Made by a program: the position numbers and the translations under genes. Shown here in pieces: positions 2,431 through 54,504 of a stretch of 54,781 nucleotides of DNA (its first letter is position 1; each line of letters starts with the position of its first letter). This stretch comes from a virus: the IMG/VR virus record IMGVR_UViG_3300030098_001280, positions 1 through 54,781 of that record, one strand, 5' to 3'. The notes under the pieces were generated by a model. The model was not told the DNA's origin. It was given only the letters and a program-made list of their open reading frames with translations, and made no database searches.

Positions 2431-2688
2431 ATGTTTCGTGATAAATGCAGTGGTAACGTGCCTCTGCCTAAGCAAGCACGTTACTTACTTGACATCATTT
2501 ATAAAGCACAGATAATCGAGCAAAAGGATTTGCTCGCTCGCATTCGCGAAACAGTTAGGACTCGTCAAGAAGCTTCTAGGATTTTAACCTATTACACAGG
2601 TTATCTTATCCGCAGAAAAGCTATTGATATACTAATAAGTAACAACAAATTAATAACGGAATGCCCACACTGTGGAGGAGAAATATAA
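2431..2688 (+). CDS. Hypothetical protein with C-terminal CxxC (85 aa)
   Basis: The frame is open from ATG 2407, inside the DUF932 gene, but ATG 2431 just after that gene's stop seems more likely; neither has a strong Shine-Dalgarno. The 85-residue product is basic and ends in ECPHCGGEI, a single CPxCG knuckle that could be half of a zinc ribbon. The middle is predicted helical and could be a small DNA-binding unit. Stop and next start overlap (TAATG at 2686-2690). Confidence 0.55.
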   Translation: MFRDKCSGNVPLPKQARYLLDIIYKAQIIEQKDLLARIRETVRTRQEASRILTYYTGYLIRRKAIDILISNNKLITECPHCGGEI

Positions 2689-3536
2689 TGCCAAACCCTA
2701 AGCGGAAGATTGACAAAACTATGTTGTCGATTGACAATGCGGAGTCAAGAGGGTTCTTACATCGTGACTATATAGCTCACTGTCTAAGATGGACTCACGT
2801 AACTAAATATTTAATGAACCAAAAGCGCTACGCTACAGCTAGAGTCTTAGATATTGGCTGTGGTAAAGAGATACCGCTGGCTAAGTTAATGCATTCATCA
2901 CGCATGAAACCATCTGAGTACTATGCAGTCGATGTTAACAAATTAACGATGCCGGCTCAATTTGCTAAGGCTGGCTGGCAGCCTAAACTAGCAGGTAGTA
3001 CAGATATTTGTACTTTAGGTCTCAAAGACTTTCAAGAACCACCTAACACGATTGTATGTTTTGAGGTGCTAGAACATGTAGCGCCTGAACATGCTAGACG
3101 CATGCTAGGTAAAATATTTGAACTATTAGAAGTAGAAGGTACTGCATTTATTAGTACACCTTGCTGGGACCCAGATGTAGGTGCTGCTAACAATCATATT
3201 AACGAAATGACTTATCAAGCATTAGGAGCTATGATTGAAGATGTAGGCTTTGGAATCAGAGGTCATTGGGGTACTTTTGCTAGTATCAAAGATTATAAAC
3301 ATATGGTTGAAACAGACCCAAACTTAAGTTATGTTTTTGAAAATTTTAGGGAGTATTATGATACTAACTATTTAGCTACGATCTTTGCCCCTATGTTTCC
3401 TCAGCACTCACGTAACTGTATTTGGGAGTTGACTAAAACCCCAACTAATCATACATGGAGTAGATTGTTTAATAGTTTACCTGATATTGAGGGTCGTTGG
3501 TCCTCGTCTGAAGATTGGAGACAATTATGTCCTTAG
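2688..3536 (+). CDS. Class I SAM-dependent methyltransferase
   Basis: ATG 2688 follows GGAGGAG; the upstream frame extension lacks support. The 282-residue protein has the Rossmann methyltransferase signature: motif I VLDIGCGKE near residues 53-61, an acidic residue ending strand 2 (AVDVN, 80-84), and FEVLEHV near 125 as in UbiG/UbiE-type enzymes. The substrate is unknown. It opens a tightly overlapping cassette with MazG-like, kinase/glycosylase-fold and ThyA-family genes, so a modified-base or nucleotide substrate is worth considering. No DNA target-recognition domain is visible, arguing against an ordinary restriction-type methylase. Confidence 0.8.
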   Translation: MPNPKRKIDKTMLSIDNAESRGFLHRDYIAHCLRWTHVTKYLMNQKRYATARVLDIGCGKEIPLAKLMHSSRMKPSEYYAVDVNKLTMPAQFAKAGWQPKLAGSTDICTLGLKDFQEPPNTIVCFEVLEHVAPEHARRMLGKIFELLEVEGTAFISTPCWDPDVGAANNHINEMTYQALGAMIEDVGFGIRGHWGTFASIKDYKHMVETDPNLSYVFENFREYYDTNYLATIFAPMFPQHSRNCIWELTKTPTNHTWSRLFNSLPDIEGRWSSSEDWRQLCP

Positions 3537-3877
3537 AACAAGACGTTAAAGACTTTCTTAATAAGTTTGAGATGGATTGCCCTAAAAAAGGTAAATTTTT
3601 AAGTAAAACTAACCATGAGCAGCGTTTTACTCATATGATCGAGGAGCTTTGGGAATATTGTCATGCAAAGACTAAGGAAGATAAGCTTGACTCGTTAGTA
3701 GACCTGGTCTATATAGCGATTGGTACATCTATTATGCACGGTTTTGACTTTACTAAAGCATGGCAAAAGGTACACGAAGCTAATATGAAGAAAGTACGCG
3801 ACAAAGACGTAACTTTTAAGTCAGGTATTACTAAACCCGTGGGTTGGAAAAAACCTAATTTAGAGGATTGCGTATGA
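3527..3877 (+). CDS. MazG-like NTP pyrophosphohydrolase
   Basis: ATG 3527 lies inside the end of the methyltransferase gene and follows a GGAG. The 116-residue product is an all-alpha NTP pyrophosphatase: a metal-binding EELWEY near residues 39-44 and a second acidic helix with KLDSLVDLVYIAIGT near 54-68. The family removes pyrophosphate from (d)NTPs, and T4 gp56-type enzymes remove dCTP and dUTP. Next to a ThyA-family enzyme with dCMP-type features it could clear an unmodified dNTP and supply dNMP substrate. Specificity cannot be read from sequence. Confidence 0.8.
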   Translation: MSLEQDVKDFLNKFEMDCPKKGKFLSKTNHEQRFTHMIEELWEYCHAKTKEDKLDSLVDLVYIAIGTSIMHGFDFTKAWQKVHEANMKKVRDKDVTFKSGITKPVGWKKPNLEDCV

Positions 3878-4863
3878 CTAAACCAATCATCATTCTTGAT
3901 GGTCCTGATGGTGTAGGGAAAACCACTTTGGCCAGGGAGTTGTGTAAGCAACTCTCAGGTAAGTACCTACACCTGGGGTATCGGTGGAAGGATAAGATAT
4001 TCGACTACCATACTTCGGCTATACGTTTCGCATCTCGCAGCACCGTACCGGTGGTAATAGACAGATGGTGGCCTTCTGAGGCGGTGTACTCCTCCGTCTT
4101 TCGTGGTGGCTCAAAGTGGCCATTACAGGGCCGGTTAGCGGATCGTATAGCCCGGAAATTAGGTGCAGTTTATGTATACTGCTTACCTGATAAAAAACAT
4201 AGCAGTAGGTATCACAAATTAAAAGAAAGTAGATACGAAATGTACGACGATATGACAGACGTTTCAAAGTTATTTAGAAAATTATGGTATGGTTGTCAAT
4301 CACATGAAGATACAGGCAACTACATAGATTTTTTAATCAGAAAAGGCGGAGTTCAAGGTTTTAGTGACTGTACAAGGTATTGTATGGCTGAACAAGGTCA
4401 CTATTTAGATTTATATGCAGAACAAGTTATTGATTTTGCTATACTTAGACAAGAACTACAATACCCACCTGCGTTAGAACATAACGAGTGGAATATTGCA
4501 GGCCATTTACAAGGCGCGGAATACCTAATAGTTGGAGAGCAAGTTAACGCCAAGAGTCGTGAGCTGTTCTGGCCTTTCTATGAACACAGGAATAGTAGCT
4601 TATACTTAACTGAGTGTTTACATGAGGCTGGTATAGATGAACATAAGCTTATGTGGTGTAATGCTTTTGATCATGACGGTAAATTTAATAAACATATAGG
4701 CTACTTGGGAGACGGTCTCAAAGTAGTTACCCTTGGGGGACATGCGGCCGATGCCGTAACAGATCATGGAGTCGCTATCCATAAAGAGTTACCGCATCCG
4801 TCGTATGTTAAAAGATTTAAAAAAGTTGATTTAGTGGAGGCACTTAAACATGCAATATCTTAA
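3874..4863 (+). CDS. P-loop nucleoside-phosphate kinase fused to uracil-DNA-glycosylase-fold domain
   Basis: ATG 3874 has AGAGGA six bases upstream and an ATGA overlap with the previous stop; the frame-open TTG at 3868 is unlikely. The 329-residue protein has two parts. Residues 1-190 resemble thymidylate kinase: Walker A GPDGVGKT (10-17) and a DRWWPSEAVY block typical of dNMP kinases. Residues 215-325 carry UDG-superfamily marks: LIVGEQVN near 219-226, WCNAF near 261, a VVTLGGHAADAV strand-turn-helix and HPSY near 308. Glycosylase-fold enzymes act in some phage thymidine-hypermodification pathways. A coupled kinase and base-transfer or repair role is inferred; I know of no characterised protein with this exact layout. 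Confidence 0.75.
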   Translation: MTKPIIILDGPDGVGKTTLARELCKQLSGKYLHLGYRWKDKIFDYHTSAIRFASRSTVPVVIDRWWPSEAVYSSVFRGGSKWPLQGRLADRIARKLGAVYVYCLPDKKHSSRYHKLKESRYEMYDDMTDVSKLFRKLWYGCQSHEDTGNYIDFLIRKGGVQGFSDCTRYCMAEQGHYLDLYAEQVIDFAILRQELQYPPALEHNEWNIAGHLQGAEYLIVGEQVNAKSRELFWPFYEHRNSSLYLTECLHEAGIDEHKLMWCNAFDHDGKFNKHIGYLGDGLKVVTLGGHAADAVTDHGVAIHKELPHPSYVKRFKKVDLVEALKHAIS

Positions 4864-5626
4864 TAATGTTTGGATTGAGACATTAAAAGAATGTTTAGAA
4901 CACGGTAGAGATGTAAGCCCTCGTAGGAATCCTACAAAAGAGTTTACAAAAACTACTGTTATAAACATGAACTATCCAGTCTTAACAATAAAAAAGAGGA
5001 AGTTAGGTTACAAATTCATGGCTGCAGAAGCATATTGGATTTTAACTGGTGATAATAGACTAGAGTCAATTAAGCCATATTCAAAAACAATTAGTAAATA
5101 TTCAGATGACAAGATTACATTTTTTGGTGCCTATGGTCCTAAGTTTGTAGATCAGTCATCTTATGTTATAGAAAAGTTAGTATACGATAAATATACAAGA
5201 CAAGCTGTATGTAATATTTGGCGAGAACAGCCACGTATAACAAAAGATGTACCATGTACATTAAACTTACAGTGGACTATACGAGGTAATACATTAGATT
5301 GTCATGCTAATATGAGGTCGTCTGACTTATGGTTAGGTTGGCCATATGACGTATTTAACTTTAGTATGATGTCTAGGTATATTAAACATTGTTATGATCG
5401 TAGAATTGGATTTTGGGAAGGTGACCATGGTTTAGAAATGGGCCACTTATACTTACATTCAAGCTGTATGCACTTATACGAAACTGATATAGAACAAGCT
5501 AAAGAATGTATTAAAGACGATGTCAGACATATAGAACCAATAATAGATTCAGAAGATGTTAATAGCTTAAAAAGTATATTATTTAATTTAAGGGAGACTG
5601 GTTTTGAGTGGCCACAGACTAAGTAA
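4850..5626 (+). CDS. Thymidylate synthase family enzyme, dCMP hydroxymethylase-like
   Basis: This 258-residue ThyA-fold protein keeps the family catalytic set: E60 in AEAYW, Y95 in GAYG, C136 in DVPC, R156-S157 with D159 in RSSDLWLG, and HLY at 208-210. The residue matching E. coli ThyA Asn177, which reads the pyrimidine as dUMP, is Asp167 in GWPYD. T4-type dCMP hydroxymethylases have Asp at this site. The predicted reaction is methylene-tetrahydrofolate-dependent hydroxymethylation of dCMP, feeding 5-hydroxymethylcytosine into phage DNA. Plain thymidylate synthesis is the alternative. It overlaps both neighbours. Confidence 0.75.
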   Translation: MQYLNNVWIETLKECLEHGRDVSPRRNPTKEFTKTTVINMNYPVLTIKKRKLGYKFMAAEAYWILTGDNRLESIKPYSKTISKYSDDKITFFGAYGPKFVDQSSYVIEKLVYDKYTRQAVCNIWREQPRITKDVPCTLNLQWTIRGNTLDCHANMRSSDLWLGWPYDVFNFSMMSRYIKHCYDRRIGFWEGDHGLEMGHLYLHSSCMHLYETDIEQAKECIKDDVRHIEPIIDSEDVNSLKSILFNLRETGFEWPQTK

Positions 5627-6089
5627 ATCTGAGTATTTCTTAGCACTAGCCGTACTTGCTGCACAACGTAGTACTTGCGTACGACGTAAAGTAGGTTGTG
5701 TATTAGTTGACAGTAGAGCTAGAGTATTAGCAACCGGGTACAACGGAGTAGCTTCCGGTGAGACACATTGTAGTGATACACCGTGCTCGGGAGCTGATCA
5801 TAGATCTGGAGAAGGTCTAGATGATTGTATTGCTATACACGCAGAACAAAATGCTATCTTACAATGTAAGAATGTAGATGAAATTAGGACAGCTTATGTT
5901 ACAACAGCACCATGTGTTAGTTGTACTAAGTTATTATTAAACACGTCTTGTCAGACGATAGTTTTCTTACAAAGCTATCCTAATTCAGGACGAAAAATAT
6001 GGAATAGGAGTTGGATTAAACATGGACCAATTGAACATGTTCTTGCCAAAGTCCTCTTGGAAGCCACCGAGAGAACTGCCTGCGCTTAA
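5604..6089 (+). CDS. dCMP deaminase (ComE/CDA fold)
   Basis: The 161-residue protein has the zinc-dependent deaminase motifs HAEQN (H79, E81) and PCVSC (C104, C107), with the extra Cys/His-rich insertion of dCMP deaminases between residues 48 and 70. The start is TTG at 5604 with AGGGAG upstream; there is no in-frame ATG before the conserved N-terminus. It converts dCMP to dUMP, usually for dTTP synthesis. Here it competes for the predicted substrate of the preceding enzyme, as in T4, where both activities coexist. It overlaps the polymerase gene by 68 bases. Confidence 0.85.
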   Translation: MSGHRLSKSEYFLALAVLAAQRSTCVRRKVGCVLVDSRARVLATGYNGVASGETHCSDTPCSGADHRSGEGLDDCIAIHAEQNAILQCKNVDEIRTAYVTTAPCVSCTKLLLNTSCQTIVFLQSYPNSGRKIWNRSWIKHGPIEHVLAKVLLEATERTACA

Positions 6090-7884
6090 AGAAGCAAAGG
6101 TAATATCTTTTGATGTAGAGACACACGATCCTAACTTAATGACGTTAGGGCCAGGTGGCGTGCGCAATGATGGTAAGTTAATTGGTATATCTATATGTAC
6201 AGATACAGGTTTTAAGGGTTATTTCCCAATAGGTCATCCTGAAGGGAATATGGATAAACAAAGAGTATTAAATTGGGCTAAGGATATCTTTAACAGGGAT
6301 ATAGAGTATGTTGGTGCAAATGTCTTATACGATCTTGAGTGGTTACGTGTTAATGGCGTAGAAGTTACAGGTACACTACGTGATATTCAGATTGCTGAAC
6401 CTTTAATGAATGAAGAACTAGATGGTGGTTATAGTTTAGAAGCACTTGCTAAACGTTACTTAGATAAAGGTAAAGATGAAGAGATGCTTAAAAAAGTTGC
6501 TAGTATCTATAAAGTAGACCCTAAATCAGGTTTATGGGAATTACCTGCTAAATATGTAGGCCCATACGCAGAAGCTGATGCAGAACTACCACTACGCATT
6601 TGGGACTTACAAAAGATTAAATTAAAAGCACAAGATTTGTGGGATATATTTGAACTAGAATCAAAATTACTACATGTTGTCTTAGACATGAGGTTTAAAG
6701 GTGTAGCAATAGATATGTATGCTGCTGAAGAACTAAATGACAGAATGCTTAATGAGGAGGTACATAAGTTACGACAGATCAGAAAAGATTGTGGAATGAT
6801 TATAGACTTATGGTCTAATGACTCAATGGCAAAAGCGTTTGATAAGATGGGTATATGGTACCCTAAGACAGCAATAGGAAACCCATCATTCGTATCATCT
6901 TGGTTACAAAACCATGAAGAAGAACTTCCACGTAAAATTGCTGAATGGCGAAAGGCTTGTAAAATGCGGAGAGATTTTATAGAAGGTATTTGTTTAAATC
7001 ACTCGCATAACGGGCGTATCTATACACAGTTCCACCAGTTAAGAAAAGATTCAGAAGGTACACGTACAGGTCGTTTTAGTTCTAGTAATCCTAATTTACA
7101 ACAAATACCAGACGATGAATTAGTTAGAAGTTTATTTATACCTGATGAAGGTAAACACTGGGCTTGTCTAGATTATTCACAACAAGAACCCAGAGTGCTA
7201 CTACATTATGCTTATTTGAGAAAATTACGAGGTGCTGAGGAAGCAGTTGAGAAATTTAGGAAAGACCCAAACGCAGATTTCCATCGAATTGTGTCCGAAA
7301 TGGCAGGCATCCCCCGAAAGGAAGCGAAAACGATCAATTTAGGCATGTTTTACGGTATGGGAATTTTTAAACTTTCGCAACAACTTGACATGACTATGGA
7401 TGAAGCTAAGCCGTTGTTTGAACAGTACCACCAGCAAGTACCATTTGTTAGGGCATTAGCACAAGAGTGTTCTATTGCAGCAAGTACACGCGGTCTTGTA
7501 AGAACATTACTTGGTAGACATAGACATTTCTCTTTATGGGAACCTGCAGACTTTAAAAATAAATGGCCGAACAAAGAGATACCATTGAATCATGAAGCTG
7601 CACAAAAAGTATGGAAAGGTAGACCATTACGTAGAGCTTACACGCACAAAGCATTGAATGCTTTAATCCAAGGTTCATCAGCAGATATGATGAAGCAAGC
7701 ATTGATAGAGTTACATGAGCATGGCATTACACCACAGCTTACTGTACATGACGAGATAGATTTTTCTTTTGATAACAATCAAGACCTGATATTAGCAAAA
7801 GAAATTATGGAAAATTGTGTTCAACTTGAATTACCTTTAAAGGTAGATGTAGAGATTGGGCCTAACTGGGGCAATATAGAATGA
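6022..7884 (+). CDS. polA: Family A DNA polymerase with 3'-5' exonuclease domain
   Basis: This 620-residue replicative polymerase has the exonuclease motif FDVETHD (D31, E33), polymerase motif A LDYSQQEPR (D384), the O-helix block RKEAKTINLGMFYG (432-445) and motif C HDEID (576-580). There is no 5'-nuclease domain, as in T7-type enzymes. The position matching E. coli Phe762 is Leu440; this residue class is common in marine viral PolA and has been linked to slower or temperate life styles. It starts inside the deaminase gene and ends in an ATGA overlap with the next gene. A start at 6037 is also possible. Confidence 0.92.
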   Translation: MDQLNMFLPKSSWKPPRELPALKEAKVISFDVETHDPNLMTLGPGGVRNDGKLIGISICTDTGFKGYFPIGHPEGNMDKQRVLNWAKDIFNRDIEYVGANVLYDLEWLRVNGVEVTGTLRDIQIAEPLMNEELDGGYSLEALAKRYLDKGKDEEMLKKVASIYKVDPKSGLWELPAKYVGPYAEADAELPLRIWDLQKIKLKAQDLWDIFELESKLLHVVLDMRFKGVAIDMYAAEELNDRMLNEEVHKLRQIRKDCGMIIDLWSNDSMAKAFDKMGIWYPKTAIGNPSFVSSWLQNHEEELPRKIAEWRKACKMRRDFIEGICLNHSHNGRIYTQFHQLRKDSEGTRTGRFSSSNPNLQQIPDDELVRSLFIPDEGKHWACLDYSQQEPRVLLHYAYLRKLRGAEEAVEKFRKDPNADFHRIVSEMAGIPRKEAKTINLGMFYGMGIFKLSQQLDMTMDEAKPLFEQYHQQVPFVRALAQECSIAASTRGLVRTLLGRHRHFSLWEPADFKNKWPNKEIPLNHEAAQKVWKGRPLRRAYTHKALNALIQGSSADMMKQALIELHEHGITPQLTVHDEIDFSFDNNQDLILAKEIMENCVQLELPLKVDVEIGPNWGNIE

Positions 7885-8526: not shown

Positions 8527-8835
8527 ATGAGTATAGTATATGTAGTTCAAGAAACAAAAGGTATTAACCTTTTACCAGCTGTTGAGTTTGGTGAAATAGA
8601 TATCTTGTTACCTGAAGGACAAGTTGTTTTTTCTACTGAAAGAACAATTAAACGGTTACAAATTAACTTACGTAAGTATACGTTCGAAGACTATCTTTTA
8701 ATGGTTGGTGATCCTGCTGCTATAGCTATGGCTGCTGCAGTTGCAAGTCAAATTACAACTGGTAAGTTTAAGTTATTAAAGTGGGATCGACAAGAAAAGA
8801 AATATTATCCTTTAATAGTTAATATAGGAGGTTAA
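8527..8835 (+). CDS. Hypothetical protein (102 aa)
   Basis: The 102-residue product is led by AATGGAGAAAG. It is mostly predicted beta with one alanine-rich helix near residues 63-75 and has no recognised domain. It is first in a three-gene unit with its own promoter, ending at a strong terminator, and sits between polymerase and primase genes. Participation in replication is inferred from position only. Confidence 0.65.
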   Translation: MSIVYVVQETKGINLLPAVEFGEIDILLPEGQVVFSTERTIKRLQINLRKYTFEDYLLMVGDPAAIAMAAAVASQITTGKFKLLKWDRQEKKYYPLIVNIGG

Positions 8836-9354
8836 ATGGATATCACAGATAAACAGTTAAAAGTTGTAAGTGATTTAGCTAAAATGCAAACTATCCTTGA
8901 AAATAAAATTAAGGAAAAAGAAGAAGATCTTGCAACTTTAAAAGATGAGTTAAAGCAATGCTCTCAAGTAGATTTACCTGAAGCACTTGCTGAAACCGGT
9001 TTGTCAGAAATAAAACTTGTAGATGGTACTAAAATTACTGTCCAACAGTTTTATAATGCAAGCATACCAAAAGATAGAGCTGAAGAGGCTTTCAAATGGC
9101 TCAGAGATAATGAGCACGGCGACCTTATTAAGAATACTATCTCTTGTGATTTTGGACGTGGTGAAGATGGAGATGCTAAAGTACTGAAAGAATCTTTAGA
9201 TAACTCTGGTGTATCTTACACGGACAAAGTGGGCGTTCATCCACAGACACTTAAAGCGTTTGTGCGTGAACAAGTAGAGTCAGGCCAGAAACTGCCCCTG
9301 GACTTACTCGGTGTATATATCGGGCAGAAAACTAAAATAATCAAAGGAGGTTAA
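8836..9354 (+). CDS. Coiled-coil hypothetical replication-region protein (172 aa)
   Basis: It starts directly after the previous stop behind AGGAGG. Residues 8-50 form a heptad-rich charged coiled coil. The remainder is a compact mixed domain rich in Asp and Gly (SCDFGRGEDGDAK near 104), ending in a beta-rich tail. I do not recognise a characterised family; similar-looking proteins often sit next to the following gene in marine phages. It may be a partner of the protein at 9359. Confidence 0.6.
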   Translation: MDITDKQLKVVSDLAKMQTILENKIKEKEEDLATLKDELKQCSQVDLPEALAETGLSEIKLVDGTKITVQQFYNASIPKDRAEEAFKWLRDNEHGDLIKNTISCDFGRGEDGDAKVLKESLDNSGVSYTDKVGVHPQTLKAFVREQVESGQKLPLDLLGVYIGQKTKIIKGG

Positions 9355-9358
9355 CATC

Positions 9359-10099
9359 ATGGCTCGTGATGTAGCTAATAAAAAGAGTAACTTACCTGCA
9401 GAGATTAACTTTGCTGAAGATGCGAATGCTGGTCTAAACGATCTAACTTCGCAGGACATGGCTATCCCATTTTTTGTTTTATTACAGAAAATGAGTCCTC
9501 AATTAGATACTGTTGAGGGTGCTAAGGCTGGTCAAATATTTAATACTGTGACAGAAGAGGTTTGTGACGAACTTCTAGTGCTACCGTGTGCTTATAAACG
9601 TGAGTTCGTGGAATGGACACCACGTGAGCAAGGCGGTGGTTTGGTCGCGCAACACAGTATTGATAGTGACGTAGTTACTAAAGCCAAACGTTCAGAAGAT
9701 GGAAGACTTATATCTGAAGCAGGTAATTGGTTAGTCGAGACAGCTTATCATTTTGTCTTGGCAATGACCAAAAATGGTTGTGAACGTGGTCTTATCACCA
9801 TGACATCTACGCAACTTAAAAAGAACAGACGTTGGAATTCTCTAATGTCTGGTATTAAGATGCAAGATGGTTCTGGTAAGAGTTTCACACCAGCGAGGTA
9901 TAGTCACTTCTATAAATTAACATCAGTTCAAGAATCTAATGATAAGGGATCTTGGTATGGCTGGGTTATTGAGTTAGAAGGAAAAGTATCTGATGCACAA
10001 ATGTATGCAACAGGTAAAGACTTTGCCACTTCTATAAGTGCAGGTGATGTAAAAGTATCAGCACCAGTACAAGAAGAAGAAACAAAATCTCACTTTTAG
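9359..10099 (+). CDS. Phage conserved protein, possible ssDNA-binding protein (246 aa)
   Basis: AAAGGAGG precedes ATG 9359. The product is 246 residues with an acidic N-terminal third, a conserved-looking centre (IPFFVLLQKMSPQ near 37; CAYKREFVEWTPR near 80) and an acidic tail ending in EEETKSHF. An acidic C-terminal tail with a terminal Phe is typical of phage ssDNA-binding proteins such as T7 gp2.5, and this block has no other SSB. That assignment is an inference from layout; the core motif is not diagnostic. Confidence 0.55.
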   Translation: MARDVANKKSNLPAEINFAEDANAGLNDLTSQDMAIPFFVLLQKMSPQLDTVEGAKAGQIFNTVTEEVCDELLVLPCAYKREFVEWTPREQGGGLVAQHSIDSDVVTKAKRSEDGRLISEAGNWLVETAYHFVLAMTKNGCERGLITMTSTQLKKNRRWNSLMSGIKMQDGSGKSFTPARYSHFYKLTSVQESNDKGSWYGWVIELEGKVSDAQMYATGKDFATSISAGDVKVSAPVQEEETKSHF

Positions 10100-10185: not shown

Positions 10186-11667
10186 ATGGAAAAAGAATTT
10201 AATGAATTATTTTTAGGTTTAACCAGAGCTCACGGCGAATATACTTTGTCAGGTAAAAACAGAGCTGATGGTAAAAAAGAGGGACGTGCTACAACAGTAC
10301 GTCAAGATGTAACTTTAGAAAAATGGAAGGAGCATTTAAATGGAGATAAAGGACTTGGAATTATTCCTATTAATGATGATTCTCGGTGCCGTTTTGGCGC
10401 GATCGATGTAGATAATTATAAGGACTTAGACTATAACCAGACAATAGAAAGGGTACGCGCACTCAACTTGCCATTGTACGCATGTAGATCTAAATCCGGC
10501 GGGGTCCACTTATATTTATTCATGAAAGAGTGGACACCTGCTAAATTAGTACAAGATAAATTAAAGGAGTTTGCTGCAGCTTTAGGTTTTGGTGGCTCTG
10601 AAATATTCCCTAAACAAACTGAAATACTAGCAGACCGTGGTGATATAGGTCAATGGATTAATATGCCTTACTTCGGTACAGAACGATGGTGTGGTGAAAT
10701 ACCACCTCAAGAATTTTTAAGAACAGTTAAACCTATAACTATTAAACAACTAGAAGAATTAAGTATAGCGGTGAGCACAGAATTTGAAGAAGGCCCACCA
10801 TGTTTACAACACTTAGCACAACAAGGATTTCCAGAAGGTACACGAAACAATGGTTTATTTAATGTAGCTGTATACTGTCGTAAGAGTAATCCTGATGGTT
10901 GGAGGACAGACGTAGATAAATATAATGTAGAGTGTATGGATCCACCATTACCTTCATCAGAAGTACAAGCAGTTATTAAATCAGCTAGTCGTAAAGACTA
11001 TCATTATACATGCAGTCGTGCACCAATAGCACCACACTGTAATTCACCTGTATGTAGACTACGTAAGTATGGTATTGATGATAACTCAGATATGCCTACT
11101 GTACATAGCTTAACGAAGTTTGATAGCTCACCACCGATCTGGTTTTTAGATATAGAGGGTGGTGGTAGATTAGAACTAGAGACAGATGACTTACAAAACC
11201 AAAGAAGATTTCAACGTAAGTGTATGGAAAAGTTAAACACTATGCCTACTAAGATGAATGAACAAGCATGGACTAAGTTAGTAAACCACTTAATGGAAAA
11301 CTTAACCGTGATTCCTGCGCCTGTAGACGCTAGTCCTGTTGGACAGTTATTTGAACACTTAGAACGATTCTGTACTGGTCGTGTACAAGCAAGAAACAAA
11401 GATGAATTATTATTAGGTAAACCTTGGAAGGATAATGGGAGAAGTTATTTTAGGATGTCAGACTTTATGGCATACCTTGATCGTATGCATTTTAGAGAGT
11501 ATAAAATTAACCAAGTTACTGCTATATTTAAGAACAATAAAGCAGAGCACCACTTCTTTAATTGTAAAGGTAAGGGCGTTAACTGCTGGTCAGTGCCTGA
11601 GTTTGAACAACACACCGGAGATTTTGAAGTACCTATGGAGTTAGATGATGATGGAACACCGTTCTGA
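10186..11667 (+). CDS. AEP-type primase
   Basis: This 493-residue protein looks like an archaeo-eukaryotic primase used by phages and TOTE-type elements: FGAIDVDNY near residues 69-77 gives the catalytic acidic pair, and KSGGVHLYLF near 103 and FPKQTE near 139 follow. The region after about residue 210 carries EGTRNNGLFNVAVYCRK, resembling the PriCT accessory domain. A Cys/His-rich segment lies near 278-295. It would prime the family A polymerase. AAGGA precedes the ATG, and the gene overlaps the next helicase gene by 23 bases. Confidence 0.78.
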   Translation: MEKEFNELFLGLTRAHGEYTLSGKNRADGKKEGRATTVRQDVTLEKWKEHLNGDKGLGIIPINDDSRCRFGAIDVDNYKDLDYNQTIERVRALNLPLYACRSKSGGVHLYLFMKEWTPAKLVQDKLKEFAAALGFGGSEIFPKQTEILADRGDIGQWINMPYFGTERWCGEIPPQEFLRTVKPITIKQLEELSIAVSTEFEEGPPCLQHLAQQGFPEGTRNNGLFNVAVYCRKSNPDGWRTDVDKYNVECMDPPLPSSEVQAVIKSASRKDYHYTCSRAPIAPHCNSPVCRLRKYGIDDNSDMPTVHSLTKFDSSPPIWFLDIEGGGRLELETDDLQNQRRFQRKCMEKLNTMPTKMNEQAWTKLVNHLMENLTVIPAPVDASPVGQLFEHLERFCTGRVQARNKDELLLGKPWKDNGRSYFRMSDFMAYLDRMHFREYKINQVTAIFKNNKAEHHFFNCKGKGVNCWSVPEFEQHTGDFEVPMELDDDGTPF

Positions 11668-15177: not shown

Positions 15178-16418
15178 AATCTATCCTCATATGTTTTACC
15201 TGAGTATATACTCCTTATGTCTACATAACTAGTAGCTATGTATGAATCTATATTAGCACTAGTTAACTCTGGTTGTACAAATATTTGTAAGTTAACCTTA
15301 GCATAATCATTTAATTTTTCATTGTTCTTCTGCATTGCTTTAGCTACGATCATTTGCGTAACTTTTAATTGACCATCAATCGATTTAATCTTATCAGCTA
15401 CCCTAATAGCTATTTCTTCTACGTTGACATCAACATTAACTCTCTCACTGTTAGAGCTTCTAGGTTCTTCTTCTGTTGTTGGCTCGACTGATTCGATTGT
15501 TTCTGTTTCTTCCGCAACTTCCATTTCTTCAGTAACAGTTTCAGTTGGAGATTCGACAACCTCTTCATATACTTCCTCCGCAATTTCTATTGGTTCTTCT
15601 ATAGGTAATTCTTCTACAACTTCTGTTGCTAGTACAATAGTTTCTTCAACAAATTCTTCTTCAACTGTTTTAACTTCTGGAAGGTACTCCTCTATCTGTG
15701 TAAACTCAACTTCACTTGTTAGTACTATAGAGGGTACCTCAATAAGTTCTTCAATCTCAACGATCTCAATCTCTGTAGCTAGTACTTCTTCAATCTCTTC
15801 AAAAGCTTCTGCTATGATAGCAGTTTCTGTAGCCGATAAGACCGTATCGTCATAGGTCATAGTAACCGATATGTTATCTAAATTAGGACCACCAAGATAA
15901 GCAGGACTATTGCCATCAGACCCACTAATAAAAATATTTCCAATGTTAGAACCAACCCCTGTATACGATACAGAGTCGTTGAAATCTTTGCCATTAATTC
16001 CCGTAACATTTGTTCTCTCCTGGCTTGTTACAGCCAATACATTATTGTCTGAATCTCTGATTTGTAACCTAATTGTAAATGTATCTGCTGGGCCAGAGCC
16101 TCCCCAGCATTGAGCTACACCACATTCTCCATTTTGTACTTGGACACTAGAGTTCAGAGTAATTCCATTATTGAGCATTTGCTGTGTGATTGTGTCTGTG
16201 GTGAGAGCAAAGCCCTGTTCTATAGAACCGGAGTCTCCAAACTCTAGGTCGTAGCTGGACCCACAACAATCGTTGAGCACGGTTACATCTCCCGTAGTGG
16301 TCCAGCTAGTCGAGTTACCTCCCTCGAAAGTACCGTTTGTAATTAAATTGTTTGTAGTTAATTCTTCTGCTAATGCAGTACTACTTAGTAATATTGCCGC
16401 TAGGAACAGGTTTTTCAT
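15159..16418 (-). CDS. Secreted carbohydrate-binding-like protein with Glu-rich region, copy 1 (419 aa)
   Basis: A Sec signal peptide (MKNLFLAAILLSSTALA, cut after ALA) leads into a domain at about residues 20-190 that starts NLITNGTF and has paired Cys (DCC, GECGVAQCWGG), resembling CBM/galactose-binding beta sandwiches. Residues 200-330 are Glu/Val/Ile-rich and low complexity, and the C-terminal 90 residues form a helical region. The start overlaps the previous gene by 38 bases. Export with a sugar-binding fold suggests a cell-surface or lysis-related late protein; function is unknown. A diverged paralogue lies at 51936-53483. Confidence 0.7.
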   Translation of the reverse strand: MKNLFLAAILLSSTALAEELTTNNLITNGTFEGGNSTSWTTTGDVTVLNDCCGSSYDLEFGDSGSIEQGFALTTDTITQQMLNNGITLNSSVQVQNGECGVAQCWGGSGPADTFTIRLQIRDSDNNVLAVTSQERTNVTGINGKDFNDSVSYTGVGSNIGNIFISGSDGNSPAYLGGPNLDNISVTMTYDDTVLSATETAIIAEAFEEIEEVLATEIEIVEIEELIEVPSIVLTSEVEFTQIEEYLPEVKTVEEEFVEETIVLATEVVEELPIEEPIEIAEEVYEEVVESPTETVTEEMEVAEETETIESVEPTTEEEPRSSNSERVNVDVNVEEIAIRVADKIKSIDGQLKVTQMIVAKAMQKNNEKLNDYAKVNLQIFVQPELTSANIDSYIATSYVDIRSIYSGKTYEDRLWTLRQ

Positions 16419-17001
16419 TCCAAGTCATACTCCGTTTATCGTTACTTAATTCTTTCTTACGTTTCTCCATCCACTTAGCTTTAGCCTCGTTTCCGATCAA
16501 ACCATCAATAGGGCACGGGGTCCCTGCGTCCATCATCGCTTGCCATATATTTTCATCTTGGCACATCAATGATATTGCTGCAACCTTCATGCCTAGTGCA
16601 TTTAATACTTTAGCTTTCTTTCTACGTTCACACATTTCATCTAAGTGATAACTACCAAAAGAACCTGAAAATCCGATTATAGTCACACCAGCAGCTAATG
16701 GTATAACGCAGCTATCTTGACCGTAGACAGACATAGCTGGAGCACTAGCCGGGTTTACGGCAGTCTTAGTATTTGTACTATTGTTAGTTTCGTTATTAGT
16801 TGTAGTATTGGAACTACTACCAGACTGGTACGTTGTAGAGCTTTCGTACCCACCGGTAATAGCAGTATTGGAACCGGCATTGTTGGTCTGTGTATTTGTA
16901 GTAGCTCCTGAACTAGTGACATCTGCTTTAGCCTCAATAGAAAGAAGTATAGCTAAAACTAAAACTACACCTACTGCTTTTGCTATGAGCTTCCAATCCA
17001 T
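16381..17001 (-). CDS. Exported or anchored late protein, Ser/Thr/Asn-rich, copy 1 (206 aa)
   Basis: Residues 7-25 form a signal peptide or anchor (AVGVVLVLAILLSIEAKA). Residues 28-85 are very rich in N, S, T and G. The C-terminal half is well ordered: QDSCVIPLAAG, a conserved MKVAAISLMCQDENIWQAMM and paired Cys. The copy at 53446-54072 keeps the C-terminal half almost unchanged. No catalytic motif is recognised; a role in lysis or envelope interaction is inferred from its place between a holin-like gene and a secreted lectin-like gene. Confidence 0.65.
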   Translation of the reverse strand: MDWKLIAKAVGVVLVLAILLSIEAKADVTSSGATTNTQTNNAGSNTAITGGYESSTTYQSGSSSNTTTNNETNNSTNTKTAVNPASAPAMSVYGQDSCVIPLAAGVTIIGFSGSFGSYHLDEMCERRKKAKVLNALGMKVAAISLMCQDENIWQAMMDAGTPCPIDGLIGNEAKAKWMEKRKKELSNDKRSMTWNEKPVPSGNITK

Positions 17002-17432
17002 TACTTCCTCGTTAGTGAACCACCAAAGTATAGTCCTATAATTGAAAAGATCGTGTGTGATTGTAGGCTAGTAATAAAGATTCCTGAACCTTCGCGCCAT
17101 ACAGTAGTTTCAAATGATGTACCAAAGATCCACCAGCCACTACTCATTTCAGTAGTTACTTGATAGATTACCTTAACGTCCGTAAAAATAGGAGCGATAA
17201 TTGGTACTACAATTATTGAGAAAACGCACATTAAGGCAATCCATCTCCTCGTATGTTTAGTATGAGGATCTGATACAGCTCGAGCTTTATCAGTTTGAAC
17301 TGCTGCAAATTTAGCGCGGTTCATTAACATCTTTTCTCGCTCAGCTTCTGCTTGAGCTTTCTGTGCCATGATAGACATAACGCCACCTAGCACCGTGCTA
17401 GCTAACATAGACAATAGTTCCATTGGTATCAT
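17001..17432 (-). CDS. Holin-like membrane protein, copy 1 (143 aa)
   Basis: I chose the start at 17432 (MIPMELLSML) because it aligns with the start of the copy at 54072-54503; the frame is open to 17480. The protein has an amphipathic N-terminal segment, a charged linker (residues 25-60), a strong membrane segment (ALMCVFSIIVVPIIAPIF) and a final hydrophobic helix near IFSIIGLYFGG. The layout resembles three-segment holins such as GTA-type holins, but identity is not proven. It overlaps flanking genes by 1-4 bases. Confidence 0.6.
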   Translation of the reverse strand: MIPMELLSMLASTVLGGVMSIMAQKAQAEAEREKMLMNRAKFAAVQTDKARAVSDPHTKHTRRWIALMCVFSIIVVPIIAPIFTDVKVIYQVTTEMSSGWWIFGTSFETTVWREGSGIFITSLQSHTIFSIIGLYFGGSLTRK

Positions 17433-17611
17433 TCTGATAACCTCCATCCTAGTATTGCTATGACTATTGTACCAACCCATATTAGCACTCGTACACCACC
17501 TTTACCTATATTTATGATCTTGTATAGTTCGACAATGTCCCTACTATTGCGCTCTACGATCTTGGTTAAAGCATCAATCTTCTCGGCTAATTGTTCGTTG
17601 GTTACTTTCAT
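17429..17611 (-). CDS. Small coiled-coil membrane protein (60 aa)
   Basis: An N-terminal amphipathic coiled coil (residues 1-35) is followed by one membrane segment (VRVLIWVGTIVIAILGW). It is joined to neighbours by ATGA-type overlaps. A holin, antiholin or spanin-like role is possible. It is the only gene of this part of the tip cassette missing from the second copy, where the fibre gene is followed directly by the holin-like gene. Confidence 0.65.
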   Translation of the reverse strand: MKVTNEQLAEKIDALTKIVERNSRDIVELYKIINIGKGGVRVLIWVGTIVIAILGWRLSE

Positions 17612-18750
17612 TAGAATGCTGTGGTTAATAATTTAGTTGTTGTTACTGATGGTTCTTTTGCCCATGCGACATAGATATAATGGTTTCCTTCCCCATTTGA
17701 TTTTCCATCAGACGTAGTTGGTGAAAATCCCTGTGCAAAAAAATGTATATTATCTTGGTTTGCAACCTCTGCTCCACCATTGTTTGCTTCATCTAGTTTT
17801 ATATTATGTTGAATAGGATTACCATGATTACTACCACTACCACTTTGAGCGGCATTATCTGGACCTAGAGCCATTGTAGTAGAAGTTTTCCATGATGTAC
17901 TCTCCCCTGTAGTATCAAATCTTGTAATCCATATTGCCCTTGGTTTAAACCCTGTAAAGATAAATGGACCATGTACATTACCATTTCCTTGATAAGTACC
18001 AGCACGAACACTTCCATTTACATTTGCAATACATATTGCCATCTGGTCTATACCACTTTGGTTTATATTATTTTTAGGACCAACACTAAATACAGTAGAT
18101 GTTGGAGCAGTATCATTCCAATAATCGTGGTCATCATTTGCTGCAACACCTGTATTAAAAGGTTGTTGAGTATCTGTTTCATTAAGTCTGCCATGTCCGA
18201 ATGCTGTTTGACCAGAACGATTACCACCATGCCAATATGCTTCCCAATTATATCCATCTTGTTCTATATCTTTGCAAATTATTGCATCTGGAATTTTTCC
18301 AAGTCCATGAGCTATCGTTCCAGCTGCACCTGTACCTGTCCAAGTCACTACTGATAGTCCAGAATCGGTGTTAGCACGATAACTTGAATTTATTGAACCT
18401 ACTCCTGTAGATGCAGTTGTTGAACTAGCTAGTTTCCAAAAGTGTCCAATAAAACCAGCACTTGCTGTATTAGTATTTGCTTCCCCACCTGTTAATGTAC
18501 AACCATCTGATGTAATACTTGCTACTCTTGAGGCAGTATCTTGTCCATCTGTTTCATCGAAGTATATATTCTTGTCAATACCTCTTACAGTATCTACTAC
18601 ATTGTGATCCGTTGTTGACGATCTGTTTGCAATATGAATCCAGTCTGGTTGAAAACCTAATCCACTTACTGTTGTTGTGCTACTGCTACCAGCCCATGTT
18701 TTTTCATCATGGTGTGCTGATGGTTTTATTAATTTACTAAATGTTGCCAT
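17611..18750 (-). CDS. DUF7483-like tail-fibre/receptor-binding protein, copy 1 (379 aa)
   Basis: The 379-residue beta-rich protein has two imperfect copies of a module with GLGFQPDWIHIANR (near 30) and HGLGKIPDAIICKD (near 155), followed by repeated W and G motifs. This is the pattern of DUF7483 proteins common in marine phages, taken to be fibre or adhesin subunits. It ends in TTKLLTTAF, identical to the partial copy at 54505-54781. It lies downstream of the main fibre and lectin-like genes. Confidence 0.72.
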   Translation of the reverse strand: MATFSKLIKPSAHHDEKTWAGSSSTTTVSGLGFQPDWIHIANRSSTTDHNVVDTVRGIDKNIYFDETDGQDTASRVASITSDGCTLTGGEANTNTASAGFIGHFWKLASSTTASTGVGSINSSYRANTDSGLSVVTWTGTGAAGTIAHGLGKIPDAIICKDIEQDGYNWEAYWHGGNRSGQTAFGHGRLNETDTQQPFNTGVAANDDHDYWNDTAPTSTVFSVGPKNNINQSGIDQMAICIANVNGSVRAGTYQGNGNVHGPFIFTGFKPRAIWITRFDTTGESTSWKTSTTMALGPDNAAQSGSGSNHGNPIQHNIKLDEANNGGAEVANQDNIHFFAQGFSPTTSDGKSNGEGNHYIYVAWAKEPSVTTTKLLTTAF

Positions 18751-46646: not shown

Positions 46647-47480
46647 ATGAAGAGAGAGAGTAAAGGTACGCCTACCCTTTTAAGCGAGGCGATTCTCAAA
46701 CTAATGAAATCTGAAGATACTGATTGGCAAAAGCCATGGCGTAATAAGAGATTCATTACTTGTCAAGGACACTACCTATCTGGTGGTAACCTTGTAACTC
46801 TAGCTAGTCTATCTGATTTTGATAGAACAGTATGGGGAACATACGATCAATGGAGTTGGCATGGATGTCAGGTAAAGAAAGGAGCTAAAGCAGTTAAGCT
46901 TACAGTATACAAAGGCAAAGATGAGGACGGTCGTCTCAAGTTTGGTAAGTATATTGCATTCAATATCGAGCAAGTTGATGGAGATATCAGTAAGTTTAGT
47001 GGCTTCGATAAGATTGATATCAATAAAGATGAGAGGTCAGCTAAAGCTGATAATCTAATTGATAAGTTAGGTGCAATTGTTAAGCCTGGAGTTGGAGCTT
47101 GTTATATACCTAGTCAGGATGTAATCAGGATGCCATCTTTTGAGCAGTTTGATTCAGCTGCACACTACTACAGTACTATGATGCATGAACAAGGTCATCG
47201 TACCGGTCATGGATCTAGATTAGATCGCAATCTTAAAGGAAAGTTTGGCGATAAGAAGTACGCTATGGAAGAACTCATAGCTGAGCTTACATCGTGCTTT
47301 ATGTGTGTAGAAATGGGTGTTATATCAGCACCTAGAAAAGACCACGCTCAATATTTAAACAGCTGGATTAAGCTACTCTCTGATGATAAGAGAGCATTTA
47401 ATATGGCAGTAGGTCAGGCACAAAAAGCAACAAACTATATGTTAAACATCATGGGTCTTGAGATCCAGGAGGTAGCGTAA
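46647..47480 (+). CDS. ArdC-like antirestriction protein with zincin domain
   Basis: The 277-residue protein has two parts. Residues 1-125 match the ArdC N-terminal (DUF1738) ssDNA-binding domain, with WQKPW near 27 and GGNLVTLA near 48. Residues 140-277 form a metallopeptidase with HEQGH (H180, E181, H184) and a downstream ELIAELTSCF helix giving the third ligand. ArdC proteins protect incoming DNA from restriction. It is expressed early here, as expected for a counter-defence function. Stop and next start overlap. Confidence 0.85.
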   Translation: MKRESKGTPTLLSEAILKLMKSEDTDWQKPWRNKRFITCQGHYLSGGNLVTLASLSDFDRTVWGTYDQWSWHGCQVKKGAKAVKLTVYKGKDEDGRLKFGKYIAFNIEQVDGDISKFSGFDKIDINKDERSAKADNLIDKLGAIVKPGVGACYIPSQDVIRMPSFEQFDSAAHYYSTMMHEQGHRTGHGSRLDRNLKGKFGDKKYAMEELIAELTSCFMCVEMGVISAPRKDHAQYLNSWIKLLSDDKRAFNMAVGQAQKATNYMLNIMGLEIQEVA

Positions 47481-51946: not shown

Positions 51947-53483
51947 GTATCCTCCTTAAATGTTCTTCTGCTCTAATCACTTCATCAGAAGCTTTTTCAA
52001 TCTTCCTTTGATAAAGAATGACTGGGTCATTATAGCTAGCTTGAGTCTCAGCATATATATTCCTACCATCGCTATAGTTTCTCGAATAGTATTCATCTAC
52101 ATTACCTCCATCAATTGTTGGTTGTCTTAGTATATCTTCATTCATATTGGTGTACGAATCAAGGTTTGTCGTAACCATTAGGCTAGCTACGATGTTAGAT
52201 GTAGCCACTAATTGTTGGTCTAACTCTTTGATAGTCTGCGATACTTGCTTCTCTATATCTGCTACTTGAACAGACTGAGTAGCCACTTCCGAAACTTCTG
52301 TATCGGATTCAGTTCCACTTCCAGAGTTTGGATCGGTTTGGGTGCTGGCTTCACTTCTACTTTCGGCTCCACTTTCGGTGCTGGCTGTTGCATCGCTGTT
52401 GGATTCTTCGCCTTGAGTACTGTTGACTTCTGATTCAGATAGTCTTTCAGCTCCTCTGGATTCCTCTTGCTCTCCACTTGCGACTGTGATTTCTTCTTCA
52501 GCGTTAGTGTTTCCTTCGATAGTTTTATTTTGCTCATTTGAGTTTCCTCCTGGGATTTCTCCTGTTGGTTCAATTGTTTCTGTAATTTCAGACGTTTCTT
52601 CAAAGCTTTCGACTTCTGTTGTGAACGCTTCGATCGTCTCCGGTTCTTCATAAGTTACCTCCATAGGTACAATCTCTTCTTCAATAGCTACTGCAAATAT
52701 CTCAACAATACCTGTGTTGATTTCTTCAATAGCTATCTCTTCGAAAGTTATCTCTTCTATTATTTCTGTTAAAATCTGTGGTTCTTCAAAGGGAATAAAC
52801 TCTTCTACTATAAACTCTTCGTATATAAATAATTCTTCTGGACTTACTGTGGTTAAGACTTCTTCAATCTCTTCAAAGGCTGTGGCTATAATAGCTGTCT
52901 CTGTTGCTGATAGTACGACTGGATCGTAAGTCATTGTTACAGAAATATTATCCACATTAGGACCACCAAGAGTATTAGGACTATTACCGTCAGACCCACT
53001 AATAAATATATTTCCTTGATTAGACCCTGTCCCAGTAAACGAAACGCTATCTGTAAAATCTTCTCCATTAATTCCCGTAACATCTGTTCTCTCCTGTGTT
53101 GTTGTAGCTAACACATTGCTATCTGAATCTTTGATCTGTAGCCTAATCGTAAAGGTATCTGCTGGTCCGCTACCTCCCCAACATTGAGCTACACCACACT
53201 CTCCATTTTGTACTTGGACACTAGAGTTTAGAGTAATGCCATTATCAAGCATTGGTTGTGAAATATTATTTGAAGTTAAGCCGAACGTCTGCTCAATACT
53301 ACCACTATCTCCAAACTCTAGGTCGTACCCCCCTGGACAACAATCATTAATTCTTTGTGCATCACCAGATAAAGTCCAGCCTGTAGTACCATTGTCAAAT
53401 GTTCCATTGGTTATTAGGTTACCGGTAGTATCTGCAAGTACAGTACTACTTAGTAATATTGCCGCTAGGTACAGGCTTCTCAT
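51936..53483 (-). CDS. Secreted carbohydrate-binding-like protein with variable acidic region, copy 2 (515 aa)
   Basis: A Sec signal peptide and CBM-like domain (residues 1-190) closely resemble copy 1 at 15159-16418, including DCC, the GECGVAQCWGG segment and GGPNVDNISVTMTYD. The middle differs: Glu/Ile-rich to about residue 300, then Ser/Glu/Thr/Gly-rich to about 410. The C-terminal 105 residues are unrelated in detail to copy 1 apart from scattered positions. A second frame (52262-52651) lies inside. The conserved head with variable middle suggests fast surface-exposed evolution. Confidence 0.7.
   Translation of the reverse strand: MRSLYLAAILLSSTVLADTTGNLITNGTFDNGTTGWTLSGDAQRINDCCPGGYDLEFGDSGSIEQTFGLTSNNISQPMLDNGITLNSSVQVQNGECGVAQCWGGSGPADTFTIRLQIKDSDSNVLATTTQERTDVTGINGEDFTDSVSFTGTGSNQGNIFISGSDGNSPNTLGGPNVDNISVTMTYDPVVLSATETAIIATAFEEIEEVLTTVSPEELFIYEEFIVEEFIPFEEPQILTEIIEEITFEEIAIEEINTGIVEIFAVAIEEEIVPMEVTYEEPETIEAFTTEVESFEETSEITETIEPTGEIPGGNSNEQNKTIEGNTNAEEEITVASGEQEESRGAERLSESEVNSTQGEESNSDATASTESGAESRSEASTQTDPNSGSGTESDTEVSEVATQSVQVADIEKQVSQTIKELDQQLVATSNIVASLMVTTNLDSYTNMNEDILRQPTIDGGNVDEYYSRNYSDGRNIYAETQASYNDPVILYQRKIEKASDEVIRAEEHLRRIRGY
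52262..52651 (-). other. Possible overlapping reading frame inside the secreted protein gene (129 aa)
   Basis: On the same strand but another frame, a 129-codon ORF runs inside the 515-residue gene. Its first half is Lys/Gln/Ser-rich, as expected from a shifted Glu-rich sequence. Its end reads like a normal protein: QPAPKVEPKVEVKPAPKPIQ, then NPIQKFRKWLLSLFK and stop. No clear Shine-Dalgarno was found. It could be a relic of a frameshift or a dual-coding region. Confidence 0.3.
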
Positions 53484-54072
53484 TCCAAGTCATGCTCCGT
53501 TTAGTTGTTTCACTACCTAATTCTTTCTTACGTATCTCCATCCATTTCTCTTTCGCTTTCTGACCTATCAACCCCTGAATGGGACATGGCGTACCAGCGT
53601 CCATCATGGCTTGCCATACATTCTCATCTTGACACATAAGAGAAATCGCTGCCACTTTCATGCCAAGCTTGGCTAATACAGCTACAGATTTTCTACGCTC
53701 ACATTCCTCGTCAACGATATAGGAGCCAACGGATGCCGAAAAAGAGAGGACAGTTAGTCCGCCAGCAAGGGGAATAACACAGCTATCTTGTCCATATACG
53801 CTCATAGAGGGAGCTGATGCGCTGTTTACGGCTGTTTTCTGATTGGTACTATTGTTGGTTTCATTATTGGTAGTAGTGCTAGAAGATGAGCCTGACTGAT
53901 ATGTCGTGCTTGATTCGTAACCACCCGTTATTGCGGTATTAGACCCCGCATTATTCGATTGCGTATTTGTTGTTGAGCCACTAGAGGTCACATCAGCCCT
54001 TGCCTCAATAGAAAGCAGTATAGCCATAACTAAAACTACACCTACTGCTTTTGCTATGAGCTTCCAATCCAT
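53446..54072 (-). CDS. Exported or anchored late protein, Ser/Thr/Asn-rich, copy 2 (208 aa)
   Basis: The protein has the same layout as 16381-17001: hydrophobic N-terminus, N/S/T-rich linker, and a conserved C-terminal half with QDSCVIPLAGG, MKVAAISLMCQDENVWQAMM and GTPCPI. It overlaps the signal peptide of the next gene by 38 bases, exactly as copy 1 does. The preserved overlap supports common descent as a block. Confidence 0.65.
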   Translation of the reverse strand: MDWKLIAKAVGVVLVMAILLSIEARADVTSSGSTTNTQSNNAGSNTAITGGYESSTTYQSGSSSSTTTNNETNNSTNQKTAVNSASAPSMSVYGQDSCVIPLAGGLTVLSFSASVGSYIVDEECERRKSVAVLAKLGMKVAAISLMCQDENVWQAMMDAGTPCPIQGLIGQKAKEKWMEIRKKELGSETTKRSMTWNEKPVPSGNITK

Positions 54073-54503
54073 TACTTCCTCGTTAAGCTACCACCAAAGT
54101 ATAATCCTATGATTGAGAATATAGTATGTGATTGAAGATTAGTTATAAAGATAGTGTTGCCCTCTTCAAAGTATGAGGTTTCATAGGTAGATCCAAATAT
54201 CCACCAGCCACTATCAGCTTCTGTTACTATTTGGTATGCAATGTTTACATCTGTAAAGATTGGAGCCACGATAGGTACTACGATAATAGAGAATACACAC
54301 ATCAAAGCAATCCATCGTCTGGTATGTTTAGTATGTGGATCAGATACTGCTCTAGCTTTATCGGTTTGTTTAGCTGCAAAGTTTGCACGTTGCATTAACA
54401 TCTTTTCTCTCTCAGCTTCAGCCTGTCCTTTCTGCGCCATGATAGACATAACGCCACCTAGTACAGTAGACGCTAACATTGATAATAATTCCATTGGTAT
54501 CAT
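54072..54503 (-). CDS. Holin-like membrane protein, copy 2 (143 aa)
   Basis: The length and start are the same as the chosen start of copy 1 (17001-17432), with strong identity in the first 80 residues and the last 25. The loop around residues 90-118 differs most. The ATG lies directly after the stop of the fibre gene; the 60-residue gene between these in copy 1 is absent. Confidence 0.62.
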   Translation of the reverse strand: MIPMELLSMLASTVLGGVMSIMAQKGQAEAEREKMLMQRANFAAKQTDKARAVSDPHTKHTRRWIALMCVFSIIVVPIVAPIFTDVNIAYQIVTEADSGWWIFGSTYETSYFEEGNTIFITNLQSHTIFSIIGLYFGGSLTRK

Positions 54504-54504
54504 T

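Follow-up and report, generated by a model that had tools for sequence, protein, structure and literature searches.

Organization of the locus

The window, that is the whole stretch of DNA analysed, comprises the 54,781 bases of one IMG/VR virus record. It holds five overlapping genes with predicted roles in nucleotide metabolism and base modification, immediately followed by a DNA polymerase gene, and a separate gene of the ArdC type lies elsewhere in it.

2688..3536, + strand: class I SAM methyltransferase, the proposed decorator of 5-hydroxymethylcytosine, 5hmC (Methyltransf_23, 2e-12)
3527..3877, + strand: MazG-like NTP pyrophosphatase, a proposed dCTPase (PRA-PH, 2.4e-7; phrog_671 nucleotide pyrophosphohydrolase, 2.7e-18)
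3874..4863, + strand: TMP-type deoxynucleotide kinase fused to a UDG-fold domain (phrog_761 thymidylate kinase, 3.2e-14; AlphaFold2 model)
4850..5626, + strand: ThyA-family enzyme, predicted dCMP 5-hydroxymethylase (PF00303, 2e-19; phrog_5131, 1.5e-34)
5604..6089, + strand: dCMP deaminase (PF00383, 1.7e-20; phrog_174, 1.8e-37)
6022..7884, + strand: family A DNA polymerase, next in the operon (PF00476, 2e-60)
46647..47480, + strand: ArdC-type anti-restriction protein, a separate gene (ArdcN, 5.3e-13; MPTase-PolyVal, 2.7e-41; phrog_7245, 1.9e-60)

The overlapping cassette directly before a polymerase, at 2688-6089, was recognized in a preliminary description and holds up: its five ORFs are intact, all on the + strand and with mutual overlaps of 4 to 23 nt, and the polymerase gene overlaps that for dCMP deaminase by 68 nt. 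Initiation of the MazG-like protein is probably at the ATG at 3527 rather than at the upstream TTG at 3515 with which its ORF opens, and that of the kinase is probably at the ATG at 3874, which forms an ATGA overlap with the MazG stop codon, rather than at the TTG at 3868 that opens its ORF. The family assignments made at that stage agree with Pfam and phrog matches for four of the five genes, where the family is clear by sequence; the exception is the third gene, in whose UDG half the assignment comes from the fold matches of an AlphaFold2 model. The ArdC-type gene, also noted then, has both the ArdcN and the MPTase-PolyVal match, and the purpose proposed for it, anti-restriction, is the same as that proposed for the cassette.

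Conservation among relatives

Searching 2.9 million viral contigs with the ThyA-type protein as query yielded 71 loci, and in most of them the gene content and order are those of the window. The neighbourhood search for the same five families that had been advised at the outset is thus answered, as 73 unique ThyA relatives have the exact one-strand order methyltransferase, MazG, kinase, ThyA, dCMP deaminase. Counted by unique ThyA sequences, the kinase and ThyA genes overlap or are at most 20 nt apart in 112 of 115 cases, and this spacing together with the conserved order argues that the grouping is not due to chance. As a guard against circularity the methyltransferase and the kinase served as extra seeds, and among loci with enough flank the ThyA clade is present in 49 of the 51 found with the former and 55 of the 56 found with the latter. 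The methyltransferase family is encoded on 408 viral contigs and on 5 contigs from bacterial MAGs, three of which hold the entire cassette and are probably viral in origin. The kinase is missing in 11 unique relatives, and seven have neither the methyltransferase nor a gene in the glucosyltransferase slot described below, so that individual steps are not always phage-encoded. The type of pathway is already known; the novelty lies in the methyltransferase-bearing form with the kinase-UDG fusion, of which no description was found in the open-licence literature.

The ThyA-type enzyme

The window enzyme retains Arg126, Cys146, Arg166, Ser167, His207 and Tyr209 of E. coli ThyA. At the positions by which a canonical thymidylate synthase is recognized, it has Asp for Asn177, Thr for His147, and gaps in place of Trp80 and of the closing residues at the C-terminus; the first two substitutions are the same as in T4 gp42, with which the local alignment lies around gp42 Asp179. 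The features that mark a dCMP hydroxymethylase of the gp42 class, the thymidylate synthase fold, the catalytic Cys146 and Asp177, are all present. The dCMP-type Asp to which attention had been drawn is accompanied by Thr147, and positions 177 and 147 are the two that MetaGPA found to separate best the thymidylate synthases of cytosine-modified from those of unmodified contigs (PMC8670742). When 148 unique ThyA sequences were aligned, 147 including T4 gp42 plus the dUMP hydroxymethylase of SP8 as a control, Cys146 and Asp177 were found in all 147 and Thr147 in nearly all; the sole sequence without Asp177 is the SP8 control, which has Asn. The Trp80 column is a gap in 77 of 77 clade members in a careful alignment and holds Trp for 27 relatives in a faster one, and because the two disagree about the relatives the absence of Trp80 is relied on for the window enzyme only.

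The best PDB match is to the CMP hydroxymethylase MilA (2e-13), which has the same Asp in its DVF motif. The preference of MilA for CMP is due to Ala176 and Lys133 (PMC5175136), whereas the window enzyme has at these positions Ser and Arg, the form that goes with the deoxy substrate dCMP. From these residues the enzyme is predicted to be a dCMP 5-hydroxymethylase with 5-hydroxymethyl-dCMP as its product.

Two other products need to be considered. Taken literally, the family names thymidylate synthase, dCMP deaminase and thymidylate kinase fit an ordinary supply of thymidylate, from dCMP via dUMP and dTMP to dTDP, with no modified base. Asp in place of Asn177 in 147 of 147 sequences, and the lack of Trp80 and of the C-terminus in the window enzyme, speak against such a role, which is very improbable once the relatives and the phage DNA considered below are also taken into account. 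Alternatively the enzyme could make 5-methyl-dCMP, as in phage Xp12, with 5-methylcytosine (5mC) or a derivative as the final base; Asn177Asp mutants of thymidylate synthase do produce 5-methyl-dCMP, according to the citing statement in PMC8670742. The missing Trp80, a feature shared with SP8, and a hydroxymethylase as the best solved match speak for the hydroxymethyl product instead, and 5-methyl-dCMP is quite improbable given also the decorating enzymes of relatives.

A proposed slot for decorating enzymes

Relatives that lack the methyltransferase (loci L063/L064, L065 and L067/L068) have between the ThyA and dCMP deaminase genes one for a T4-type β-glucosyltransferase (PF09198, 1e-23; solved T4 enzyme, 5e-30). 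The acceptor of the T4 enzyme is 5hmC in DNA. Its counterpart in the relatives' operon thus supports hydroxymethylcytosine as the product, in keeping with the original proposal of a hydroxymethyl rather than a methyl group, and it counts against 5-methyl-dCMP, since a hydroxyl is required, as well as against mere thymidylate supply. In the tree the phages with β-glucosyltransferase form one well-supported branch within the ThyA clade.

Counted over unique ThyA sequences whose flanks are long enough, 118 are accompanied by the methyltransferase, 12 by β-glucosyltransferase or a second family (13 if T4 is included), 7 by neither and 0 by both. As it never co-occurs with the alternative decorators, the methyltransferase probably caps the hydroxymethyl group, though the exclusion, with about five changes on the tree behind it, is suggestive but statistically not strong. 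Consistent with these counts, PF09198 occurs in 3 of 50 whole records of the clade, every one of them without the methyltransferase, and in no methyltransferase-bearing record among the 50; the carbamoyltransferase decorator PF16861 is absent from the same 50. The second family in loci without the methyltransferase (alignment A3) has no match in Pfam or among solved structures, and that it is a glycosyltransferase is a guess; a rescan with the L063 glucosyltransferase recovered only its own two contigs. The arrangement suggests a decorating step with exchangeable enzymes: methyltransferase, β-glucosyltransferase or the uncharacterized family.

The methyltransferase

The motifs RDYxAHxxRW, STP, NHxxE, GTF and RNxxW are retained in at least 116 of 124 unique relatives of the methyltransferase, and neither [DNS]PP[YFWH] (DPPY-type) nor PCQ occurs in any of the 124, on which ground a role as a DNA N4 or N6 amino-methyltransferase or a C5-methyltransferase was rejected. 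The structure is modeled with high confidence (pLDDT 93), and the nearest folds are 3dli, the tRNA enzyme CmoM and cap N7-methyltransferase. The methylation that CmoM carries out in tRNA is on the C5 side chain of a pyrimidine. With CmoM among the structural neighbours and the amino- and C5-methyltransferase motifs lacking, O-methylation of 5hmC is the best guess for the reaction, and an O-methyl ether of 5hmC for the end product. The ‘decorate’ step of the preliminary description fits the methyltransferase, given its mutual exclusion with glucosyltransferase in relatives.

The family could have a target other than 5hmC. The fold is a generic class I one, close to tRNA and small-molecule enzymes, and with a tRNA, a host protein or a small molecule as target the final base would be plain 5hmC, as it might be in the seven relatives with neither the methyltransferase nor a glucosyltransferase-slot gene; T4gt DNA, with mostly plain 5hmC, itself resists 82% of restriction enzymes (PMC7653180). 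Against this, the methyltransferase heads the overlapping operon in most relatives, is substituted by glucosyltransferase in others and accompanies ThyA in nearly all of the loci for which it was the seed, and we consider plain 5hmC as the final base rather unlikely. With the capped base preferred, a fuller reading is offered tentatively, as one to which we give somewhat under even chances: the methyltransferase makes 5-methoxymethylcytosine, the kinase reads the base through its UDG-fold domain, and the carriers are small phages that form a large group, most of it uncultured. A search of the open-licence literature for 5-methoxymethylcytosine as a DNA base did not find it.

Kinase-UDG fusion, pyrophosphatase and deaminase

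By sequence the UDG half matches PF03167 with an E value of 0.0098, too weak for the Pfam cut-off. In the AlphaFold2 model of the fusion (pLDDT 93) the N-terminal half matches TMP-kinase-type folds (2axp, 2v54), those of YorR and vaccinia TMPK, and the C-terminal half the UdgX structures 6iob and 6iod. The kinase half has the P-loop and DR.W.SE..Y conserved in a TMPK-type fold, as expected of a TMP/dNMP kinase. The other half has the fold, motif I and HP motif of the UDG superfamily, with G[ED]....K, N265 and HP...RF conserved, and it shares its fold and the GEQ and HP motifs with UdgX and the family 4 uracil-DNA glycosylases; it differs from them in the absence of Pro-Gly from motif I and in its fusion to a kinase. 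A 162-aa protein of locus L073, annotated as a G:T/U glycosylase, was considered as a stand-alone UDG and rejected, as Pfam gave no support.

The state of the UDG domain changed about 11 times on the tree, and a domain gained or lost so repeatedly is probably not needed for the core pathway. It is seen only together with the methyltransferase, in 44 loci and in none without it, though this dependence (44/15/0/11) involves too few independent changes for a test. Fusion of such a domain to a P-loop kinase, and the precedent of a 5hmdU DNA kinase (PMC7653180), could mean that the kinase phosphorylates 5hmC within DNA after the UDG fold has flipped the base, on the way to a larger hypermodification. 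That is improbable: the fold and motifs of the kinase are of TMP-kinase type, and UDG-less kinases are common, two lineages without the methyltransferase having them beside a β-glucosyltransferase, which needs a free hydroxyl. This juxtaposition makes hm-dCMP, and not the hydroxyl, the most likely substrate, and in the pathway favored below the UDG-fold domain would most likely serve as a base-recognition module on the kinase. Some phages have in the kinase slot a protein of 122-139 aa with a marginal match to DUF1599, ‘nucleotide modification associated’ (E 0.042).

The metal-site residues of MazG/PRA-PH proteins, E43, E44, E47, D59 and D63, are invariant in 57 sequences, and the zinc residues of dCMP deaminase, HAE and PC..C, are conserved.

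Cultured carriers and restriction resistance

Stenotrophomonas phage AXL3 and Pseudoxanthomonas phage PW916 have the five families in the same order, with the kinase-UDG fusion and Asp177. For both, thymidylate supply is the published interpretation (PMC7504290, PMC9414467). Only two of 37 enzymes, TasI and Tru1I, both with A/T-only sites, cut AXL3 DNA, and its authors took the genes as a thymidylate pathway yet raised the possibility that G/C bases are altered (PMC7504290). The resistance to the other 35 already contradicts thymidylate supply with no modified base. ThyX is encoded as well by AXL3, PW916 and six others, which makes the Asp-bearing ThyA dispensable for dTMP.

Resistance to 35 of 37 enzymes in a cultured bearer of the cassette (PMC7504290) lends weight to the earlier idea of a protective modification. 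In published benchmarks 5hmC confers resistance to 82% of enzymes, glucosyl-5hmC to 94%, 5mC to 90% and 5hmdU to 8% (PMC7653180), and the AXL3 value fits modified cytosine, the comparison being rough as enzyme panels and digestion conditions differ. Plain 5hmdU was rejected because of Asp177 and because SP8 DNA, which contains it, has the 8% value. Modification of C and of G are not told apart by restriction since the tested sites hold both. Eam1105I is an isoschizomer of AhdI. The 5mC-containing DNA of Xp12, for all its resistance to 90% of enzymes, is cut fully by KpnI and AhdI (PMC7653180), whereas AXL3 DNA resists KpnI and Eam1105I (PMC7504290), which, again on a rough comparison, speaks against plain 5mC.

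Proposed pathway

In the pathway that we favor, the MazG-like pyrophosphatase would convert dCTP to dCMP, part of which the deaminase, going by its family function, would turn into dUMP for thymidine synthesis. The remaining dCMP would be converted by the Asp177 enzyme to 5-hydroxymethyl-dCMP, a prediction from its active-site residues and from the β-glucosyltransferase of sister phages; the TMP-type kinase would phosphorylate this toward hm-dCTP, and the adjoining polymerase would incorporate it. The methyltransferase may cap the hydroxymethyl group, likeliest as an O-methyl ether, in the role that glucosyltransferase has in T4, as mutual exclusion suggests, and the window virus would be protected from host restriction. 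The earlier interpretation is supported: the cassette reads as a condensed version of the T4-type 5hmC pathway in which another enzyme does the decorating, and its likely outcome is phage DNA that has decorated 5hmC in place of cytosine and resists host restriction enzymes.

Such a pathway would extend T4-style cytosine replacement to small phages that form a widespread group, and it would account for the restriction-resistant DNA of AXL3, a cultured phage considered for therapy. It predicts a methyltransferase that acts on 5hmC, a potential reagent for 5hmC mapping, and with AXL3 and PW916 in culture the question is directly testable.

Relation to known systems

Among the closest known counterparts are the cassettes of AXL3 (gp27-gp31) and PW916. 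They differ from the window in that the polymerase is not adjacent, ThyX is present and the genes are annotated as thymidylate synthesis, and identity is about 32% in the methyltransferase and 45% in ThyA. MetaGPA linked ThyA with Asp177, PRA-PH and dCMP deaminase experimentally to modified cytosine, and its 5-carbamoyloxymethylcytosine phages share these three and a decorator with the cassette (PMC8670742). Their decorator is instead a carbamoyltransferase, the family absent from the whole records above, and the main text of that report mentions no such kinase or methyltransferase.

With the T4 5hmC pathway (gp42, gp1, gp56, cd and α/β-glucosyltransferase) the cassette shares an Asp-class hydroxymethylase, a nucleotide kinase, a pyrophosphatase, a deaminase and a proposed decorator. 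In contrast to T4, its genes overlap in a compact operon, the genomes are small and have a family A polymerase, its ThyA-type enzyme is only distantly like gp42, its kinase is fused to a UDG fold, and a SAM methyltransferase stands in place of the glucosyltransferase. The first four families of the T4-type pathway are nevertheless all present, and in some relatives without the methyltransferase the decorator too is a T4-like β-glucosyltransferase.

The enzyme of Pseudoxanthomonas phage PW916 (L076:3280-4098) is labelled in GenBank as a deoxyuridylate hydroxymethyltransferase, and this is probably wrong because Asp177 in its sequence suggests that dCMP is the substrate. Pelagiphage-type record AP013540 (L080) has MazG-kinase-ThyA-deaminase with Asp177; its ThyA (L080:6380-7138) retains a Trp in the region of E. 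coli Trp80, and the product may be 5-methyl-dCMP instead of 5-hydroxymethyl-dCMP.

Close to the Asp177-bearing ThyA of phages without the methyltransferase is a protein family of 335-344 aa (phrog_14998), a candidate third decorating enzyme, for which Pfam and PDB gave zero matches:
L061:1167-2174, phrog_14998 protein
L239:4982-6016, phrog_14998 protein
L241:4991-6016, phrog_14998 protein
L233:9710-10741, phrog_14998 protein

Some cassettes are without the kinase, its slot being occupied by a protein of 122-131 aa whose match to DUF1599 (nucleotide modification associated) is marginal:
L026:5597-5992, kinase-slot protein
L027:5624-5992, kinase-slot protein
L038:5627-6007, kinase-slot protein

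A tail-fibre-like module occurs twice in the window, at 15784-17887 and 52858-54781, the latter cut off by the contig end. The match is 75% between 15784-17433 and 52858-54504, and 93.5% between 17611-17887 and 54505-54781; the two copies are either tail modules that serve as alternatives or an effect of assembly.

The window also has:
8527-10099, three proteins resembling phage Pam3 gp32-gp34 (PF23992, PF23984, PF23977)
10186-11667, AEP-TOTE-type primase with PriCT-1

UvrD-like and SNF2-like helicases follow the primase, and genes similar to the Pam3-like trio are found repeatedly close to the cassette in relatives.
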